Part shown: positions 21,964-54,362 of the stretch, piece after piece
Position numbering within the stretch: the first letter of the stretch is position 1
Layout of the letters: each line of letters begins with the position of its first letter
Source of the DNA: Candidatus Methanoperedens sp.
GTDB taxonomy: Archaea; Halobacteriota; Methanosarcinia; Methanosarcinales; Methanoperedenaceae
Reading direction: 5' to 3'
Assembly: GCA_026552975.1 (NCBI GenBank)
Contig: JAPMTR010000075.1
Span: 1 to 57,854 of the forward strand
Length of the DNA: 57,854 bases
The notes under the pieces: generated by a model
Told to the model about the DNA's origin: nothing
Seen by the model: the letters and a program-made list of their open reading frames with translations, nothing else
Database searches by the model: none
Program-made: the position numbers and the translations under genes

Positions 21964-23292
21964 TTAACCGCTACCCCCAACCATCGCTTTATTAACAAGC
22001 ACATGCGGCGACCCATCACTAACAGGCACAAGCTGTCCTGCTTTCCCGCACCGGCCTGAATTCATTTCAAGGTCATTTCCAACAGCGGACACGCTATTCA
22101 ATATCTCAAGAGTATTCCCTGATAATGAAACATCCCGAAGAGGCGTTGTAAGCTCGCCATTCTTTACGATAAAACCCCTCTCGGCATTGAACTGGAAAAC
22201 TCCTTCACCAGGATTGACCTGCCCTCCGCGCGAACCTGTAAGGTATATTCCATTTTTTAGTTCAGAAAGCATTTCCTCAAATTTCATCCCATCAGGAGCG
22301 ATGAAGGTATTGCTCATCCGTATAACTGGCCGGCCGTATCCCTGGGCGCGGGCATTTCGGCTTTCACCCCCAAGTTTTCCTGCTGTCTCTCTTGAATGGA
22401 TAAAGGATCTCAGGATGCCGTCCTGTATCAAAGTGGTCCTCTTTGATCCTGCTCCTTCGTCATCAAACGGATAATATCCATATTCATGAAGAGATGGATC
22501 ATCATATACCGTTACGAGGGGAGATGCTATATGTTCACCGATCTTTCCTGAAAGGATGGAATTTCCTTCAAGCACATGGTCTGCTTCCACGGCATGACCG
22601 ACAGCCTCATGGATAAAAACGCCTGCAAGTTCCTGGTCAAGGATAACAGGATATGTCCCCGCTTTTGGAGTAGATGCTGACAGAAGCTCAATTGCCGTAG
22701 TTGCGGCTTTTTGTGCAAGTTCGAAAGCATCATGTTTCTTAAAGAGCTCAAAACCCATCACGCCAAACCGACTTTCCCTTCCGATCTGATAGACACCTTC
22801 TGACTGGGCTATTGCACTTATGGCAAATCCTACCCGGTTTAAAGAATATTCACAATCAAGTCCCTCTGAATTTGAATATTTTACATTTATGAGAGACTCA
22901 GAATAAACCGCATTCGTACTCTTAATTCCTTCAATTTTCGCATTATTCTCGATTTCCAACAACAGTTTGACCTTATCTTCAATTGGAATATCTCCGGGAT
23001 TCTCCCTCACCTCTGGAAGATCTTTAAGATCAGGTTTATTTATAGGAGCAAGCTCTATCGGGTTCCTGGGGCTTTTGCTTCTTGCATATCCAGCCAGTTT
23101 TCCTGCTGAGGAAATTGCAGTATTCAGATCATCAAAAACACCATCCAGTGATACAAAACCCCACGATCCGTGATCAAGGACCCTTACAGCAGCACCACTT
23201 GAAAAATTATTTGAGATCTCACGGATCTCACCATTATCGATCTGAATGGATGTGCTGACACTTTTCAGTATCCTTGTATCAAAAAAATCCAT
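21964..23292 (-). CDS. tldD: TldD/PmbA-family metalloprotease, TldD type
   Basis: A 442-residue protein with the TldD zinc motif HEAVGHAVEAD (HExxxH, about residues 228-233) and the downstream conserved Gly/Cys-rich ending LEMNSGRCGKAGQLVPVSDGSP. YYPFDDEGAGSKRTTLI and TGSRGGQVNPGEGVFQF are family blocks. TldD usually works as a heterodimer with TldE, which trims unfolded peptides and matures modified peptides. No tldE lies next to it in this window. The start is seven bases from the lonB stop on the same strand. Confidence 0.92.
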   Translation of the reverse strand: MDFFDTRILKSVSTSIQIDNGEIREISNNFSSGAAVRVLDHGSWGFVSLDGVFDDLNTAISSAGKLAGYARSKSPRNPIELAPINKPDLKDLPEVRENPGDIPIEDKVKLLLEIENNAKIEGIKSTNAVYSESLINVKYSNSEGLDCEYSLNRVGFAISAIAQSEGVYQIGRESRFGVMGFELFKKHDAFELAQKAATTAIELLSASTPKAGTYPVILDQELAGVFIHEAVGHAVEADHVLEGNSILSGKIGEHIASPLVTVYDDPSLHEYGYYPFDDEGAGSKRTTLIQDGILRSFIHSRETAGKLGGESRNARAQGYGRPVIRMSNTFIAPDGMKFEEMLSELKNGIYLTGSRGGQVNPGEGVFQFNAERGFIVKNGELTTPLRDVSLSGNTLEILNSVSAVGNDLEMNSGRCGKAGQLVPVSDGSPHVLVNKAMVGGSG

Positions 23293-48237: not shown

Positions 48238-48986
48238 CCGACACCTCCAAGATAAAGAAGAGCTGCAAGACGTCCAATTTCATTAGCAGATCCTACGACA
48301 TCCCCACTCACACCCCCAAAATGTCGGTTGGCAGTATTAAGGACAAGAAGTCCTGACAACTGCGAAACTATTAATGCTTCGATACCCTGGGAACCAAGAA
48401 CAATATAACAAACTAATATCGAAAATATCATCCCTGTGATCAAGTCGGATTTCTTCGTATTATCAACGGTCATAGACCCAAAACCTTCATGGATCCTCCG
48501 TCCGAAAGCTGCCACAGTGATCATGGACTGCTTGGCGCTTGTTTCAGCAATGATCAACGCATATGGTAGAAGGAGATAAATATTGGATTCCTGGATCGAC
48601 ACGAGAGAGACAAAAAGACCCAGGATGGCAATCATGCAAAAAACAATACCACCGGTCCCAACAGCGGTATCTCGCGTGGCAGAGATCTTTTTCTCTTTTG
48701 AACCATGTGCTGCTATGCCATCTCCAAAATCTGCAAGCCCGTCAATGTGGTTAATCCCGGTAAAATAATATATCGCTATGATAACAAGAAGCGCGACCAT
48801 TATCGGGGATAATACCAGCGATGAAGCCAATCCGATCACAGCAAGAATAATACCAATAACTGCGCCTACAACCGGAAATAAATATATATGCTTCATAAGA
48901 TTTTCGATTCCTTCCATGCTTATACCTACCGGTATCGTGGAAAGAAAACCAAAACCATTACGCAGGGATGACAGGATGTTTTTCAT
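48222..48986 (-). CDS. cobS: Adenosylcobinamide-GDP ribazoletransferase (cobalamin synthase)
   Basis: A 254-residue membrane enzyme joining adenosylcobinamide-GDP and alpha-ribazole(-phosphate). GFLSTIPVG starts the family pattern, GINHIDGLADFGDGIAAHGSKEKK is the metal-binding signature, RDTAVGTGGI follows, and GGVSGDVVGSANEIGRL is the C-terminal signature. Seven or so hydrophobic segments are visible. It overlaps cobZ by four bases (ATGA) and cobY by 16. Confidence 0.95.
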   Translation of the reverse strand: MKNILSSLRNGFGFLSTIPVGISMEGIENLMKHIYLFPVVGAVIGIILAVIGLASSLVLSPIMVALLVIIAIYYFTGINHIDGLADFGDGIAAHGSKEKKISATRDTAVGTGGIVFCMIAILGLFVSLVSIQESNIYLLLPYALIIAETSAKQSMITVAAFGRRIHEGFGSMTVDNTKKSDLITGMIFSILVCYIVLGSQGIEALIVSQLSGLLVLNTANRHFGGVSGDVVGSANEIGRLAALLYLGGVGWMLW

Positions 48987-49591
48987 CCGGCAAAACCGAC
49001 TTTTTCGACTTTGACCCTTTTTGGTCTGGTCGCCTTCTTTTTTGTTTTCTTGACCGGTTTTTCACTATCTTTGTTTCCTCTTGAATACATGTTGGCTGAA
49101 GTCCCGCCAATAAGTCCAGCTATTACATCGTCCATAAAAGGCCCAAGCTTTGACAGGATACCGGGTTTTAATTTATCAAATCTCACATATTCAAATATTC
49201 CCTTGTCTCCGCTTATGTATTTTGCAATACTCATCCCGATGACCTCATCTACTATAAGGAAGGTGAGGTCTTTTTTGAAAGTTTCTTTTGTCATGCCGGG
49301 AAGCTCTCCCTTCTCTCCAGCGTTTTCAAGAAGCATCCCTGCGTACATGAGAATGCTCAAATTTGGATCTGAAAGTGCGTGTTTCATTTCTCTTTTGAAG
49401 ACTTTTCGGGCGATGGCCAGCGTTTCTACGCCGGGATGAGGTACATAAAGTTCCATAGCGGTTGAAACGAGAACGTCTTCAGAAAGTCCAGCCTCTTCAA
49501 GGACTTTCATTATGGATATTGTTCCAGATACACCCAGATTTTCAGGCTGGTTTTCTTTCTTTTTTTCTTTTTTTATGCTGGATAATTTCAT
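48983..49591 (-). CDS. cobZ: Alpha-ribazole phosphatase CobZ (PgpA-like fold)
   Basis: Archaeal CobZ removes phosphate from alpha-ribazole phosphate or adenosylcobalamin phosphate, the last step of nucleotide-loop assembly. The C-terminal half is the PgpA-like domain: LTFLIVDEVIGMSIAKYISGDKGIFEYVRFD ... GPFMDDVIAGLIGG. The N-terminal half (SGTISIMKVLEEAGLSEDVLVSTAMELYVPHPGVE) is CobZ-specific. I use the ATG at 49591 (MKLSSIKKEKK) rather than the TTG at 49618. The tail is Lys/Arg-rich (KKTKKKATRPKRVK). It is the first gene of the cob-mcm operon; a TATA-like TTTATA at about 49655 precedes it. Confidence 0.85.
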   Translation of the reverse strand: MKLSSIKKEKKKENQPENLGVSGTISIMKVLEEAGLSEDVLVSTAMELYVPHPGVETLAIARKVFKREMKHALSDPNLSILMYAGMLLENAGEKGELPGMTKETFKKDLTFLIVDEVIGMSIAKYISGDKGIFEYVRFDKLKPGILSKLGPFMDDVIAGLIGGTSANMYSRGNKDSEKPVKKTKKKATRPKRVKVEKVGFAG

Positions 49592-49702
49592 AATATCATC
49601 TGTGGTTTCTTTTCTCAAACTTATTTAAGAACTACTCAATATTCCTATGTCCTATAAATTTTTTCAGGCAGAATGTGTTTTCATTACTGAGGTTTATAGC
49701 TA

Positions 49703-49738
49703 AAAAAGTACGTATAATCTACCTTATACGCACTTTTT
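49703..49738. repeat. 15-bp inverted repeat with A/T-run ends
   Basis: AAAAAGTACGTATAA (49703-49717) and TTATACGCACTTTTT (49724-49738) pair with one mismatch around a six-base loop. The outer A and T runs give a hairpin with a U tract on either strand, so it could end the polB2-cassette transcript. Alternatively it may act as an operator about 110 bases before cobZ. Confidence 0.5.
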
Positions 49739-49892: not shown

Positions 49893-50146
49893 CCGTAACG
49901 GTAATTCTTTATTATAATCACGTAACGTAAATTAATCGCCTGAATGCCTCCGCGGATAGATACGCACAATTTTGCGTAACGTATTTAATTATATAAAATA
50001 CCGTTACGGGATATTTACGAGACTTTACCGTAACGGAAATATATACCCATTTAACGCGTAACGGAATTTGTTAATTTTAATACCGTTACGGGTATTTGTG
50101 TAATTAATTGCGTAACGGTTTTTAGTGAACTGATTGGCGTAACGGA
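49893..50146. repeat. Array of CCGTWACGG inverted repeats on a 27-bp register
   Basis: Nine good copies of the 7-base core CGTWACG start at 49894, 49921, 49975, 50002, 50029, 50057, 50084, 50111 and 50138. Successive distances are 27, 54, 27, 27, 28, 27, 27 and 27; the one gap has a decayed unit (CTCCGCG) exactly at 49948. Most copies extend to CCGTAACGG or CCGTTACGG, an odd-length palindrome. The intervening 18-20 bases are AT-rich and not conserved. There is no open frame. It lies between the 3' end of the polB2 cassette and the cob-mcm operon. It is not CRISPR (the repeat is far too short). A multi-site operator, origin iterons or a centromere-like site are the options. Confidence 0.85.
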
Positions 50147-50234: not shown

Positions 50235-51209
50235 TTATTTGACCTGTGTGTTTACGACTCTTGTATCCACTATTTTATTACCTAAGAATATATCTACTGT
50301 TATAGTATATCTCCCGGCAGGTCTTACCCCGCTTACTTTTTCCGGGATCGTCATCTGTATAGGGATCTCATAGGTCTCACCAGGTTTTATTTTAGCATTA
50401 TATTTATCCGAATATTCTCTTTTCGCTTTATCTCCCATAAATGCAAAATCATTATTTAATGCAAATGTCCTTGTCTCGAATCCGGTGATATCTATTGATC
50501 CAGTATTTATAAGGATTATTTTTGCTTTGACAACACTTCCTGCTGTATAGCCGGGAGCAATTTCGATCCTGGAAATTTTTAGATCACTTGTTTTCTTGAT
50601 ATTGAAAGTACCTGATGCTATATCCGCATTACGATATTTCGCTTTCCACTTATGTTCTCCAGAATAAAGTGCTTTCGTCGATACTGCGCCGCATGTATTT
50701 ACTTCTGAGGGTGGCAATGCATCAACATAAATGATCATTCCTTTTACCCCCATATTTTTTCCTTTAAACGTAGTCTGGAATCCCCACTGATTTTTTGAAG
50801 CCGCAGATTCACGAATATTTATACCGTCAACTGAATCAATTACGACGATAGATTTCCTGGCGGAAATTGTCTGGTTATTAAAACTCACATTGAGTGATAT
50901 GAAGTTCTCACCTATCTCAAATTTTCTTGAGAATTTCTGGCCTGTACCGATATTGATATCGCTCAATTTCCATTCAAATGCTGGCTTGTCTATGTTCTCA
51001 ACCGACGCTTCCAGTACCTCTTCGGTTTCTGTCCATACGACCCTATCGCATCCAATTGATATAGTTGGCGCTGGTTTTTCAGGTATTTCCTGCTTTTTGA
51101 AAATACCCGAACTGAATATCAAAACAAGAATTAAAGTTGCCATAATGACGATTATATATTGTTTTTTAATTTTGGGTTTAGGAATTCTAAAAATATTGCC
51201 ACCTTCCAA
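50235..51209 (-). CDS. Membrane-anchored protein coupled to polB2
   Basis: A 324-residue protein with a basic N-terminus (FRIPKPKIKKQ), one membrane segment (about residues 18-36, YIIVIMATLILVLIFSSGIF), and about 285 residues that should lie outside the cell. The latter look like beta-sandwich domains: one with CDRVVWTETEEVLEASVEN, and a C-terminal CARDB-like domain (SRIEIAPGYTAGSVVKAKIILINTGSIDITG). Its TTG start overlaps the polB2 3' end by 23 bases; the ATG at residue 23 would shorten the anchor. Why a surface-type protein is coupled to a DNA polymerase is unclear; it may simply be a passenger gene. Confidence 0.65.
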   Translation of the reverse strand: MEGGNIFRIPKPKIKKQYIIVIMATLILVLIFSSGIFKKQEIPEKPAPTISIGCDRVVWTETEEVLEASVENIDKPAFEWKLSDINIGTGQKFSRKFEIGENFISLNVSFNNQTISARKSIVVIDSVDGINIRESAASKNQWGFQTTFKGKNMGVKGMIIYVDALPPSEVNTCGAVSTKALYSGEHKWKAKYRNADIASGTFNIKKTSDLKISRIEIAPGYTAGSVVKAKIILINTGSIDITGFETRTFALNNDFAFMGDKAKREYSDKYNAKIKPGETYEIPIQMTIPEKVSGVRPAGRYTITVDIFLGNKIVDTRVVNTQVK

Positions 51210-53337
51210 GATCCATCTGCAGACCCATGTTGCCCATCAACCCATCCAACCGTTCTTTCGTATACCCAAAAGGCAAAAGTATGCTCTCAGCCGCCCTGAG
51301 CAGGAACTCATTGTACTTAATCCTGTCATACCCTGTACCTTCATCAACAAGCTCGGCGATCTTTACACGCTTCATGTAACTTTTAGAGGAACTGTCAGTG
51401 ATAACGTACCTGATGCTCTGTCCGGGCTGGATCGTAATTCCAATGTTCTGGAACTGTTTCATCGCAGCAGTATTATTGTTTGACTGCCTGTAATCCTTGA
51501 GGCTGTGGGATATGCGGGCGGTAAATATCATATCTTCTATTTTGCATTCACCTTCAAAAACCTTCCTGGAATATTCCCGAAGTACCTTTAATGAATCTGG
51601 TATTGCATGGTAAAATCCCTTTGCATCATCAGCTTTTGCAAGGCATGAAAGCATCTCCTCCTGCATTCTATTTATCAACGCAGGTGTGTCGCTTCGCCTC
51701 ATCTCGATGCCGCGAACTTTCAATTTACCATTATTCATCATACCGTAATACCTATTTAGCGCACCTATGCCATTTGACCTGTTGGGCAAAAAAACGATCC
51801 ATTTGAATATTCCTTTATGCTCAAGAGTGATCCCGATGCGTTCACTGGCTCGCCTGCAAAGCTCCTGCGGGTCATTTCCCTTCACCCACAGGCTGTCTAC
51901 TATCCCATGAAGGATCTCAAACCCACTTTCCTGCGCAAGGTCAATAGTTTGCAGAAGTATCTCTCGTCCGTATGCAGTTATAGATTCATGGCACTCGATC
52001 CGGCCAAATCGCGCCTTGTTATAACCCATATACCCGAAGCTTGTGACAAGCAGCCATTTGAGCAGGTTCTGCTTTTTCTCATATTCTTCTGCCTTCTCCG
52101 GCTGGTCTAATATTCGTTTTTTGTATGCCATGCGTCTATCGATCAGGGGTTTTATCACCCTGGGTATGAGCCCGACCCGTTTTTCACAGATGTTGTATCC
52201 TGTAAATGGCACCCGTTTTTTCGAATCCGTGCAGCATGGGCACAGTACTGTCTCCGGAGATATATTGTGATTTACCATGATATTCGGGAAAAGGGAGGCA
52301 AAATCAAGTTCGGAAGCATTCTCGTGCAATCCAACACGCGGTTCTATCACAAGTGCGCCCCTGTCTGCTACCATGAGTTCAAGCGCAGTCTTCCAGTTCT
52401 CTGCAATATTGCGCTTCCATGGGACAAGCACACCATCAAGCAACGCCTGGTTTACCTGCATCGCATTTACAGCGCCTCCGGGGCTTAAACGCGACAGTTC
52501 CTGCATTGGTATTCCGGTAATGCGTGAGAGGTCGATGAGTCCCAAAAGTCCTCCCTCCCTGAACATGAACGATGCACGGTCAAGATGCAGCCGTCCTGAA
52601 AAGATATGTCCCTGCGGTTTGTAAAGTATCCTGCCATAGCTGAAATATGACCTGTCCTTTCCAGGTGCAATGTTTTCTGAACGGCCGGGGGCAAATGAAA
52701 TACCCAGATGCTCTGCCCTTTTGTAAAGGTATGGAATATCGAAGCTGTCACCGCCATCTGTTACGATGATGTCGGGGTCTTCTTTTAAGATAAGCTCCTG
52801 GAGTTTGCGGATCATGTCACCCTCATCTTCCTGCATTGTGGTTTCACCCAGCGTTATACTTCCGATCGGTTCATCCATTGTTATGATCCCGCGCTCTTTT
52901 TTCGATTTTATGCAAAGCTTCATGACCTTCAGTTCAGGTATTTCATAATCCAGTGAATACCTGTTATCAGATTCCATATTTGCCATAGGGAAAATGCCTT
53001 TTCCGAGCAGATACTGCCTCGCAGGGTCAAGATCAATATTATACAGCATGCAGCCGCGTTCTTCAAGCATTCCGGCTATTTCATATATTTTTTCTGTGCT
53101 CTTCAGTGTGATCTTGATCAGGGGAACACTTTCGCCTGAAATATGCGTTTTTTTATTTTCAAAGACAGCTGAGACAACTTCAGGAAGAGTTGATATAAGG
53201 GATCTCAGTTCGGGATCGCCCGTGCTATATATCTGCGGATAGTAGGTCTCACGTACCGGGATGCATCGGTCATTGTTTTTCATCCAGCATGTTATCTGTG
53301 AGTCCTCCCTGTTGTACTGCACGTCCAGAAGATACAT
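51187..53337 (-). CDS. polB2: B-family DNA polymerase, PolB2 type with altered active sites
   Basis: A 716-residue B-family polymerase. Motif A is ELDFASLFPNI (D345 kept). Motif B is LLKWLLVTSFGYMGYNKARFG (K427 kept; TSFG replaces NSxYG). Motif C is HGIVDS (D481 kept) where active enzymes have YxDTDS, so one of the two metal Asp is lost. The Exo I motif that should read DIE is replaced by CIK (LKVMKLCIKSK), while the Exo II remnant DSFDIPYL survives. Proofreading is surely lost and polymerisation probably impaired. GGAGG seven bases before the ATG fixes the start, although it overlaps the 101-residue gene by 68 bases. PolB2 proteins are linked to damage-induced translesion synthesis in Sulfolobales; a similar role is inferred here. 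Confidence 0.85.
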   Translation of the reverse strand: MYLLDVQYNREDSQITCWMKNNDRCIPVRETYYPQIYSTGDPELRSLISTLPEVVSAVFENKKTHISGESVPLIKITLKSTEKIYEIAGMLEERGCMLYNIDLDPARQYLLGKGIFPMANMESDNRYSLDYEIPELKVMKLCIKSKKERGIITMDEPIGSITLGETTMQEDEGDMIRKLQELILKEDPDIIVTDGGDSFDIPYLYKRAEHLGISFAPGRSENIAPGKDRSYFSYGRILYKPQGHIFSGRLHLDRASFMFREGGLLGLIDLSRITGIPMQELSRLSPGGAVNAMQVNQALLDGVLVPWKRNIAENWKTALELMVADRGALVIEPRVGLHENASELDFASLFPNIMVNHNISPETVLCPCCTDSKKRVPFTGYNICEKRVGLIPRVIKPLIDRRMAYKKRILDQPEKAEEYEKKQNLLKWLLVTSFGYMGYNKARFGRIECHESITAYGREILLQTIDLAQESGFEILHGIVDSLWVKGNDPQELCRRASERIGITLEHKGIFKWIVFLPNRSNGIGALNRYYGMMNNGKLKVRGIEMRRSDTPALINRMQEEMLSCLAKADDAKGFYHAIPDSLKVLREYSRKVFEGECKIEDMIFTARISHSLKDYRQSNNNTAAMKQFQNIGITIQPGQSIRYVITDSSSKSYMKRVKIAELVDEGTGYDRIKYNEFLLRAAESILLPFGYTKERLDGLMGNMGLQMDLGRWQYF

Positions 53338-53575
53338 TTTGAGCCTCCTTCATGCGATTAATCTCTTTTTGCTGCTCGATCAGGATCGACAGGAACATCG
53401 ATTCCAGGGGATCAAGCATCGGGGCGACGGTTGATGATGATGCGTGTTGCCTGGCCATGTTCATTATGCTGTCAAATGCATTCCTGTCCTCTCCACGCAG
53501 CGCCCTTCGATACGTGGCAAGTTCAAGAACGATACTTTCAAGCAGCACCCTGAAGCTTGGAACAGTTCTGCCCAT
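53270..53575 (-). CDS. Small helical protein between the RecA-like and polB2 genes
   Basis: A 101-residue, mostly helical protein. MGRTVPSFRVLLESIVLELATYRRALRGEDRNAFD (start), then a helical ARQHASSSTVAPMLDP segment and SMFLSILIEQQKEINRM. The pattern GRTVPSxR...YRRALRxxDRxAFD...ARxHAS is highly characteristic and I believe it recurs in other microbes, but I know no assigned function. Its ATG follows the RecA-like stop directly (TAAATG), and its end overlaps polB2 by 68 bases, so all three should be made together. It may be an adaptor between the polymerase and the RecA-like protein. Confidence 0.75.
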   Translation of the reverse strand: MGRTVPSFRVLLESIVLELATYRRALRGEDRNAFDSIMNMARQHASSSTVAPMLDPLESMFLSILIEQQKEINRMKEAQNVSSGRAVQQGGLTDNMLDEKQ

Positions 53576-54211
53576 TTACCCACCTGCGAAGTAGTCATTG
53601 AACCTTGTCTGTCCGGGCGGGACATTAACATGCTCGAACAAATTATCGCCATCCCGTACTTTTACAATGTCCTTTTTCTCTTCGATCCTGATGACCCTGT
53701 CAGCGTTCCCTGCGACCAGCTGATCTGCCCACCACATGCCGCCAAAGCTTGTCACTACAGTAATAGTATTTAATGACCGTGTGACTTCTTTCAGGCTCTT
53801 AAGAATGGGGCTGAATAGCTTTTTTCCGTCCTGCATTGAGAAAAGATTGGACAGGTATAGGACTGCCAGAAGCTGTGGTTCCCACCTGATAACTGCTTCA
53901 CGCATTCCACTTATGATCGCATCCATCTGGTATTCGGTAAAGGCGCGGGCGACATGGATGCGTGAAAGAGTGCTTTTTGGTTCAAAACCCATGAATTTTA
54001 CGGCTCTTGAAATGGCATAGGGGTTGAAACTGTTCGCCCCGTCCACAAGTATGACATCACGTCCGGTGACAGCTGACCTGGCACACAGGTTAAACAGGGT
54101 ATCGGGAACAAGTGCTGAGGTACCCTCAATGACAGTGATGCATGACGGTTTGAAGCCCGATGGGTCAATACAGCCGTTTATCAAAGGGGTTATTTTCCTG
54201 GACGTGTGCAT
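53576..54211 (-). CDS. RecA/RadA-like protein without Walker A (pseudo-ATPase)
   Basis: A 211-residue RecA-fold protein lacking the N-terminal HhH domain of RadA. The strand-loop where Walker A should be reads VIEGTSALVPDTLFNLC, with no GKT. The next strand keeps the RadA-like DVILVDGANSFNPYAISRAV. A hydrophobic Walker B-like strand LLAVLYLSNLF lacks the acid. It should therefore not hydrolyse ATP. ImuA/SulA-like RecA relatives serve as scaffolds for damage polymerases in bacteria, and this protein could play the same part for PolB2. AAGGTGAAATT before the ATG is a good ribosome binding site. It is the first gene of the cassette, directly behind the repeat-bearing promoter. Confidence 0.75.
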   Translation of the reverse strand: MHTSRKITPLINGCIDPSGFKPSCITVIEGTSALVPDTLFNLCARSAVTGRDVILVDGANSFNPYAISRAVKFMGFEPKSTLSRIHVARAFTEYQMDAIISGMREAVIRWEPQLLAVLYLSNLFSMQDGKKLFSPILKSLKEVTRSLNTITVVTSFGGMWWADQLVAGNADRVIRIEEKKDIVKVRDGDNLFEHVNVPPGQTRFNDYFAGG

Positions 54212-54292: not shown

Positions 54293-54362
54293 CGTGACGG
54301 GAATATTTTAAAAAAATACCGTAACGGAGTTTTATACGATTATTACGGTAATTGCGTAACGT
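54293..54362. repeat. Second cluster of CCGTAACGG sites, upstream of the polB2 cassette
   Basis: CGTGACG at 54293-54299 and CCGTAACGG at 54319-54327 have core starts exactly 27 bases apart, as in the array at 49.9-50.1 kb. A half-decayed TTACGG lies at 54343-54348 and GCGTAACGT at 54354-54362. The cluster sits just upstream of the likely core promoter of the RecA-like gene. The same motif bracketing both ends of the cassette, and seen nowhere else in the gene-free DNA of the window, ties it to these genes. Confidence 0.75.

Follow-up and report, generated by a model that had tools for sequence, protein, structure and literature searches.

The question raised by this locus is what a row of short palindromes, set at a nearly constant step of 27 bp, does in an archaeal genome. 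The row lies in a stretch of 57,854 nucleotides from Candidatus Methanoperedens sp. (contig JAPMTR010000075.1 of assembly GCA_026552975.1), the whole of which was analyzed and is called the window here. An earlier note, made from the letters alone, had described ten CCGTWACGG units, one of them decayed, and had named origin iterons, a partition site and a multi-copy operator as candidates for their function.

The array in the window

The array consists of nine exact CGTWACG cores and one empty slot (Table 1). The reported phasing was confirmed, with steps of 27 bp and one of 28; the distances from one exact core to the next are, in order, 27, 54, 27, 27, 28, 27, 27, and 27 bp. The count of ten units has to be amended. 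Nine have exact cores, but the tenth is a slot that is in phase and has no real core, its sequence matching the core at 3 of 7 positions.

There are 12 exact cores in the window, as against 1.48 (sd 1.30) in 100 dinucleotide shuffles, in which the maximum was 5. Three of the 12 are outside the array, one at 22510 and two upstream of the polB2 gene group. With a one-mismatch core 27 bp from the nearer of the two, this pair makes up an outlying weak cluster ca. 4.6 kb from the dif-like site described below. The 9-mer CCGTWACGG was found 11 times in the whole genome and its reversed control 16 times. The unusual thing is the clustering and the step of the cores; the 9-mer by itself is not enriched in the genome.

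Table 1. Positions in the window of the array, the dif-like site, and the features around them.
Feature	Positions	Strand	Remarks
PgpA-like gene (PF04608)	48983–49618	-	on that side of dif on which relatives have xerA
dif-like site AGTACGTATAA-TCTACC-TTATACGCACT	49707–49734	.	arms 11 bp, spacer 6 bp, 10/11 arm positions complementary
array	49893–50145	.	nine exact CGTWACG cores and one empty slot
unit 1, CCGTAACGG	49893–49901	.	core starts at 49894
unit 2, ACGTAACGT	49920–49928	.	core starts at 49921
slot 3	49948–49954	.	core lost (CTCCGCG), phase kept
unit 4, GCGTAACGT	49974–49982	.	core starts at 49975
unit 5, CCGTTACGG	50001–50009	.	core starts at 50002
unit 6, CCGTAACGG	50028–50036	.	core starts at 50029
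unit 7, GCGTAACGG	50056–50064	.	core starts at 50057; 28-bp step precedes
unit 8, CCGTTACGG	50083–50091	.	core starts at 50084
unit 9, GCGTAACGG	50110–50118	.	core starts at 50111
unit 10, GCGTAACGG	50137–50145	.	core starts at 50138
324-aa gene, no Pfam match	50235–51209	-	3' end faces array; relatives precede array-dif-xerA in G006 and G030
outlying weak cluster	54293–54361	.	exact cores at 54320 and 54355, one-mismatch CGTGACG at 54293

Conservation of the motif and its spacing

The earlier note had proposed looking for the motif and its spacing in related genomes, and both recur across the family. Two cores 26–28 bp apart were found in 29 of the 31 Methanoperedens genomes, the other two being 68% and 63% complete; the reversed version of the two-unit pattern matched 6 of the 31, once each. 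Three cores in a row occur in 25 of the 237 genomes of the class – 25 of the 34 in the family and none of the 203 outside it – and the reversed three-unit pattern matched one of the 237. Among 174 steps of 22–28 bp between neighboring cores in the fetched loci, the step is 27 bp in 126 cases and 26 bp in 27.

The bases between the units had been described as not conserved, which proved too simple. An alignment of 269 array sites from loci of the family showed that the core is surrounded by a longer palindrome of 19 bp, approximately AAATnCCGTWACGGnATTT. In 55 array-to-array alignments of at least 80% identity, the cores were 97.9% identical (1213/1239), a value in which up to about half of the core changes are hidden by the choice of query units with exact cores, the shoulders 83.8% identical, and the linkers 83.0% identical. 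A looser set of 286 alignments, which includes out-of-phase ones, gave 95.2%, 75.6%, and 70.3%. The family-wide motif and spacing, and the higher identity of cores than of linkers, give good support to the proposal of the earlier note that a protein binds many sites here in a fixed geometry.

Arrays were also sought in two contig collections. The scan of genome_contigs gave 99 stretches, of which the 80 listed were sorted, 18 to the Methanoperedenaceae and 62 to other organisms. None of the 18 family stretches is in an open frame; 13 have runs of at least four units, 12 have two clusters, and their linkers are 35–60% alike. Of the 62 others, 39 lie inside an open frame, 14 have runs of at least four units, and one has two clusters; the linkers of these 14 long runs are 84–100% alike in 13 and 68% alike in one. 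The scan of viral_contigs gave 17 loci. Two of these, with 10 units (L203) and 6 units (L210) and linkers 94–100% alike, are plain tandem repeats, and the remaining 15 have four units at most.

A dif-like site beside the array

When the non-coding DNA of the array loci was searched for common words, the array core led the list. Other shared words led to a second conserved element, ACTGCGTATAA-N6-TTATACGCAGT, which has the 11+6+11 geometry of dif, the site of Xer recombination. The copy in the window, AGTACGTATAATCTACCTTATACGCACT, is ca. 160 bp from the array. It agrees with E. coli dif (sequence taken from PMC3025954) at 19 of 28 positions. No other 28-mer on either strand of the window agrees as well; the next best, five in number, have 18 matching positions.

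A site with dif geometry was found in the array locus of all 31 array-bearing genomes examined (29 Methanoperedens and two of another genus of the family). In 27 of these, a TATAA-N6-TTATA site in which 9 or more of the 11 arm positions are complementary occurs once per genome, and the 638,679 bases covered contain no further matches. The remaining four (G006, G008, G013, and G026) fail this inverted-repeat definition but carry a dif site by the mismatch pattern. Sites with at most one mismatch to the pattern occur in 23 genomes, once in each, and all 23 are in array loci. Two-mismatch sites away from arrays were found in ten genomes of the family and in 5 of the 203 outside it, which is at chance level, since the reversed dif pattern matches 22 of the 237 genomes once each. 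As the loci had been fetched for their arrays, the inverted-repeat test shows that array loci have dif, and the mismatch-pattern test shows that the strong dif sites of the family fall in array loci. TATAA-N6-TTATA was absent from all 17 loci of the viral_contigs scan. The array is, almost beyond doubt, strongly linked to a dif-like site. The dif-linked, family-wide array of phased palindromes is real.

Four second dif-like sites with two mismatches lie off the array locus (G008:C306:1384, G009:C19:861, G020:C42:7018, and G025:C3:11467). Their spacers are CAAAAA/TTTTTG or nearly so, by chance or possibly as part of a mobile element that uses XerA.

Geometry of the rows around dif

A map was made of 26 loci with dif at 0 and the recombinase gene xerA to the right, with at most 25 loci contributing to any bin. 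The start of xerA, as given by the longest frame, falls between +30 and +94 in 15 of 21 loci; in the others the range is -40 to +572. The usual arrangement in the relatives is array-dif-xerA-array: one row typically occupies the stretch from -480 to -160, and in many loci a second starts around +890, just past the xerA stop. Per locus there are 3.36 exact cores in the bin from -500 to 0 and 1.56, 1.48, and 0.72 in the three successive 500-bp bins between +500 and +2000; more than 2 kb from dif the number does not exceed 0.36 in any bin. The array cores are concentrated within about 3 kb. More than 5 kb from dif, four long contigs have 4, 11, 6, and 8 exact cores, as against 33.6, 19.6, 13.6, and 15.2 expected from base composition.

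Of the 26 loci, 21 have cores both to the left and to the right of dif at distances of up to 2 kb; the five one-sided loci are the window, G003, G009, and two that are cut by a contig end. The nearest clustered unit is 153–204 bp from dif in 17 of 27 genomes and at most 500 bp away in 23. The four genomes with no clustered unit within 500 bp are G001 and G002, which have unclustered cores in that range, G003, and G074, which is cut by a contig end. There are also more distant clusters beside dcd and ubiD genes (PF22769 and PF01977), as far as ca. 11–12 kb from dif in G004 and G024, and a pair of units 20.5 kb from dif in G027.

One explanation of this geometry is that the units are strict accessory sites of a synaptic complex, as in the plasmid sites cer and psi, where a wrapped array would set the topology so that only dimers recombine. 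The most frequent distance of the nearest clustered unit, 153–204 bp, is on a similar scale to the accessory sequences of cer, which excerpts of PMC5357621 put at ca. 180 bp. However, further clusters are kept 1–12 kb from dif, a distance too great for a single compact complex, and in 4 of the 27 genomes the nearest clustered unit, if any, is more than 500 bp away. Accessory sites in this strict sense are distinctly unlikely.

xerA and its separation from dif

The tyrosine recombinase gene xerA is present in 25 of the 31 relative loci. The six loci without it are two contigs that end near dif (L051 and L061), three additional contigs (L045, L053, and L054) from genomes that have their xerA locus among the 25, and L065, a stretch 12 kb away from the dif on its contig, that dif being in L217. 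The XerA protein of the loci contains both a Phage_integrase and a SAM-like domain. Among PDB structures it matches 4a8e best (E 1.2e-49; listed as XerC-like), which we take to be the XerA of Pyrococcus abyssi, and the third match is 5hxy, listed as tyrosine recombinase XerA.

The genome of the window has a cognate Xer recombinase gene on another contig (C117:25664–26494), and the protein is 84% identical to the XerA of G006. Around this gene no dif-like site was found, and the closest exact core is 4.4 kb away. In this genome dif and the array are still together although xerA lies elsewhere. From 44000 to its end the window has 16 genes of at least 90 aa. The 324-aa gene is the only one of them with relatives close to an array, and these were found in 2 of the 31 relative loci. 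Because relatives of this gene flank array-dif-xerA in G006 and G030 in the same way, the window array can be taken as the counterpart of the same-side row of the relatives. The separation, seen in one fragmented genome of 2.57 Mb with 1.7% estimated contamination, is an argument for an association of the array with dif rather than with xerA.

This bears on a second explanation, an operator array, in which the palindromes would be repressor or activator sites for xerA, dcd, and the polB2 gene group, and dif would merely adjoin xerA. The clusters beside dCTP deaminase (dcd) genes at several loci, including the distant ones of G004 and G024, are in its favor, as are the units beside ubiD genes and the weak sites that precede the window's polB2 gene group. 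Yet the xerA gene of the window genome has no exact core within 4 kb and the array is still with dif. The row beyond dif is mostly 200–500 bp from the xerA start and the second row often comes after the xerA stop, positions that would be odd for an archaeal promoter, and nine units would far exceed what an operator needs. An operator array is unlikely.

Several other features of the xerA surroundings were recorded. In the window genome a 33-bp tandem repeat of four copies directly follows xerA (L216, 11563–11668). A gene for a small zinc protein, HNH-like by eye and with a sub-threshold zinc-ribbon Pfam match, adjoins xerA in L042, L050, L058, L059, and L068. The dif sites of all five of these loci are of a variant with TATATAA in at least one arm, which is also found in G006, G015, and G020 without the HNH-like gene.

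Outside these loci, a tyrosine recombinase match of some kind was found in 39 of 60 genomes of the family of G117, the best-scoring one being 30% identical. Among 50 further genomes, those of family f2 have near full-length relatives with 34–43% identity, and the matches in other families are at most 32% identical over about 200 residues or more, or are partial pieces. In the closed f2 genome G038 there was no TATAA-type dif within 1.5 kb of xerA, where two other inverted repeats are present, and inspection of 20 kb showed no phased row.

Gene neighborhood and the possibility of an origin

The earlier note had placed the array near mcm and behind the polB2 cassette. This is correct for the window, where mcm is 2.3 kb from the array, but the setting is not conserved. 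The polymerase gene group (51187–54211), which has array-type sites upstream, encodes a B-family DNA polymerase (PF00136) of 716 aa, preceded by two genes of 101 aa and 211 aa. Neither of the two has a Pfam match, and the 211-aa protein is RecA-like by eye only.

Phased, iteron-like repeats with mcm 2.3 kb away could suggest a replication origin, and in G021 a cdc6 gene adjoins the array. However, Orc1/Cdc6 matches above the cut-off were found on the array contig in only 2 of the 29 array-bearing Methanoperedens genomes (G021 and G030), many of the contigs being short, and the same locus has a dif-like site. The proposal of origin iterons was rejected on these grounds and is scarcely credible.

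The Cdc6/Orc1 gene of G021 (G021:C30:14656–15693), seen in that one genome, is about 0.7 kb from dif. FtsZ genes (PF00091, PF12327) are found near the array locus in G008 (L048, 685–1827) and adjoining a further unit pair in G012 (L053, 8273–9352).

Position of dif relative to the replication terminus

A position of dif at the replication terminus is not supported. In contig 3 of G001, plain GC skew was uninformative, and neither GC skew at four-fold sites nor gene orientation showed a switch at dif. In four long contigs, tetramer polarity at dif was not beyond that at random breakpoints (1000 breakpoints at each of three window sizes; p 0.14 to 0.60 over three statistics), and these terminus tests are to be read with the fact that every genome of the genus in the Orc1/Cdc6 search has at least 10 contigs.

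These results weigh on a third explanation, a replication fork barrier, in which bound arrays on either side would hold the forks so that they meet at dif. It is true that dif is flanked on either side by exact cores, at up to 2 kb, in 21 of 26 loci. But the sites are symmetric and so have no built-in polarity, the skew and tetramer tests gave no sign of forks converging at dif, and the row in the window is on one side only. A fork barrier is very improbable.

Search for the binding protein

Strong palindromes away from the array locus, searched for in 21 of the 34 family genomes, showed no conserved promoter in the 20 stretches read. An autoregulated binder gene, sought by way of these off-locus palindromes, was rejected, as the recurrent ATTACCGTTACGGAATT site falls inside a coding gene. 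A MarR protein encoded downstream of the arrays in G008, G010, and G022, the single DNA-binding neighbor that was tested, was rejected as the binder, as it is present in only 4 of the 34 genomes. These searches yielded no binding protein.

A proposed platform that would mark the dif region

The best explanation is that the array is a platform for a putative dimeric DNA-binding protein and belongs to the dif site of the chromosome, with a role in marking the dif region or in dimer resolution; we put the probability of this at roughly 60%. One putative dimer would occupy each 19-bp palindrome. In rows at 26–27 bp, about two and a half turns of the helix, neighboring dimers would be on opposite faces, which would suit a wrapped or two-sided assembly. 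The bound protein may mark, fold, or hold the dif region, and XerA would thereby meet two sister dif sites at the right place and time. The array protein would then do the task that bacteria give to FtsK. The array, its conservation, the site of dif geometry, and the usual order array-dif-xerA-array are observed, whereas three points are inferred: a working dif, the binding of a protein to the palindromes, and an effect of this protein on dimer resolution or segregation. As clusters are kept kilobases away from dif, marking or folding of the region is favored over a single compact complex.

A more specific version of the platform is tentative and rather doubtful: that the phased rows are a terminus-marking system that replaces FtsK, in which the putative dimer would gather or tether sister dif regions at the division site and license XerA to resolve dimers. 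Of the three functions named in the earlier note, a partition-like one comes closest; an operator is possible and fits less well, and an origin is unsupported.

Archaea have to control chromosome dimer resolution without FtsK. Excerpts of Cortez et al. 2010 (PMC2958812) state the lack of FtsK and suggest that a partner may bind sequences that flank dif, and a review (PMC8371274, excerpts) says that archaeal control seems to use a different mechanism. No description of arrays of this type was found among the listed titles and abstract openings of open-licence papers in PubMed Central. In this family the dif-adjacent DNA is unusually explicit – a defined 19-bp palindrome, set in rows, with conserved cores, beside dif even in one genome where xerA has moved. 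The analysis also supplies predicted dif sites for Methanoperedens, a methane-oxidizing lineage of archaea.

Comparison with known systems

The matS sites of E. coli, bound by MatP, form the terminus macrodomain over hundreds of kilobases. As in the arrays, a short palindrome is present many times in the neighborhood of dif. The arrays differ in their consensus, AAATnCCGTWACGGnATTT, which is not that of matS (GTGACRNYGTCAC), in the tight phasing of the units at 26–27 bp, and in a spread of kilobases and not hundreds of kilobases.

The cer and psi sites, with PepA and ArgR or ArcA (PMC5357621, excerpts), also have protein-bound DNA beside a Xer core site, as is predicted for the array. Unlike them, the arrays are chromosomal and not plasmid-borne, are usually on both sides of the site, and have up to four clusters.

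Among archaea, the XerA/dif system of Pyrococcus abyssi, as described in the excerpts of PMC2958812, is alike in its Xer-type recombinase, its 11+6+11 site, and its one strong site per genome. The same excerpts report conserved repeats alongside dif in the Thermococcales and propose them as possible partner sites. The flanks in the Methanoperedenaceae are different from these, being made up of a distinct 19-bp palindrome, the rows of which form several clusters across kilobases. In most Methanoperedenaceae genomes xerA adjoins dif, whereas the Thermococcales, according to that source, keep the two apart. The dif-xerA modules of the Sulfolobales (PMC2958812, excerpts) resemble the present loci in having dif close to xerA, but their conserved flank is a single one of 13 bp on one side, and the arrays are repeated palindromes, usually on both sides.
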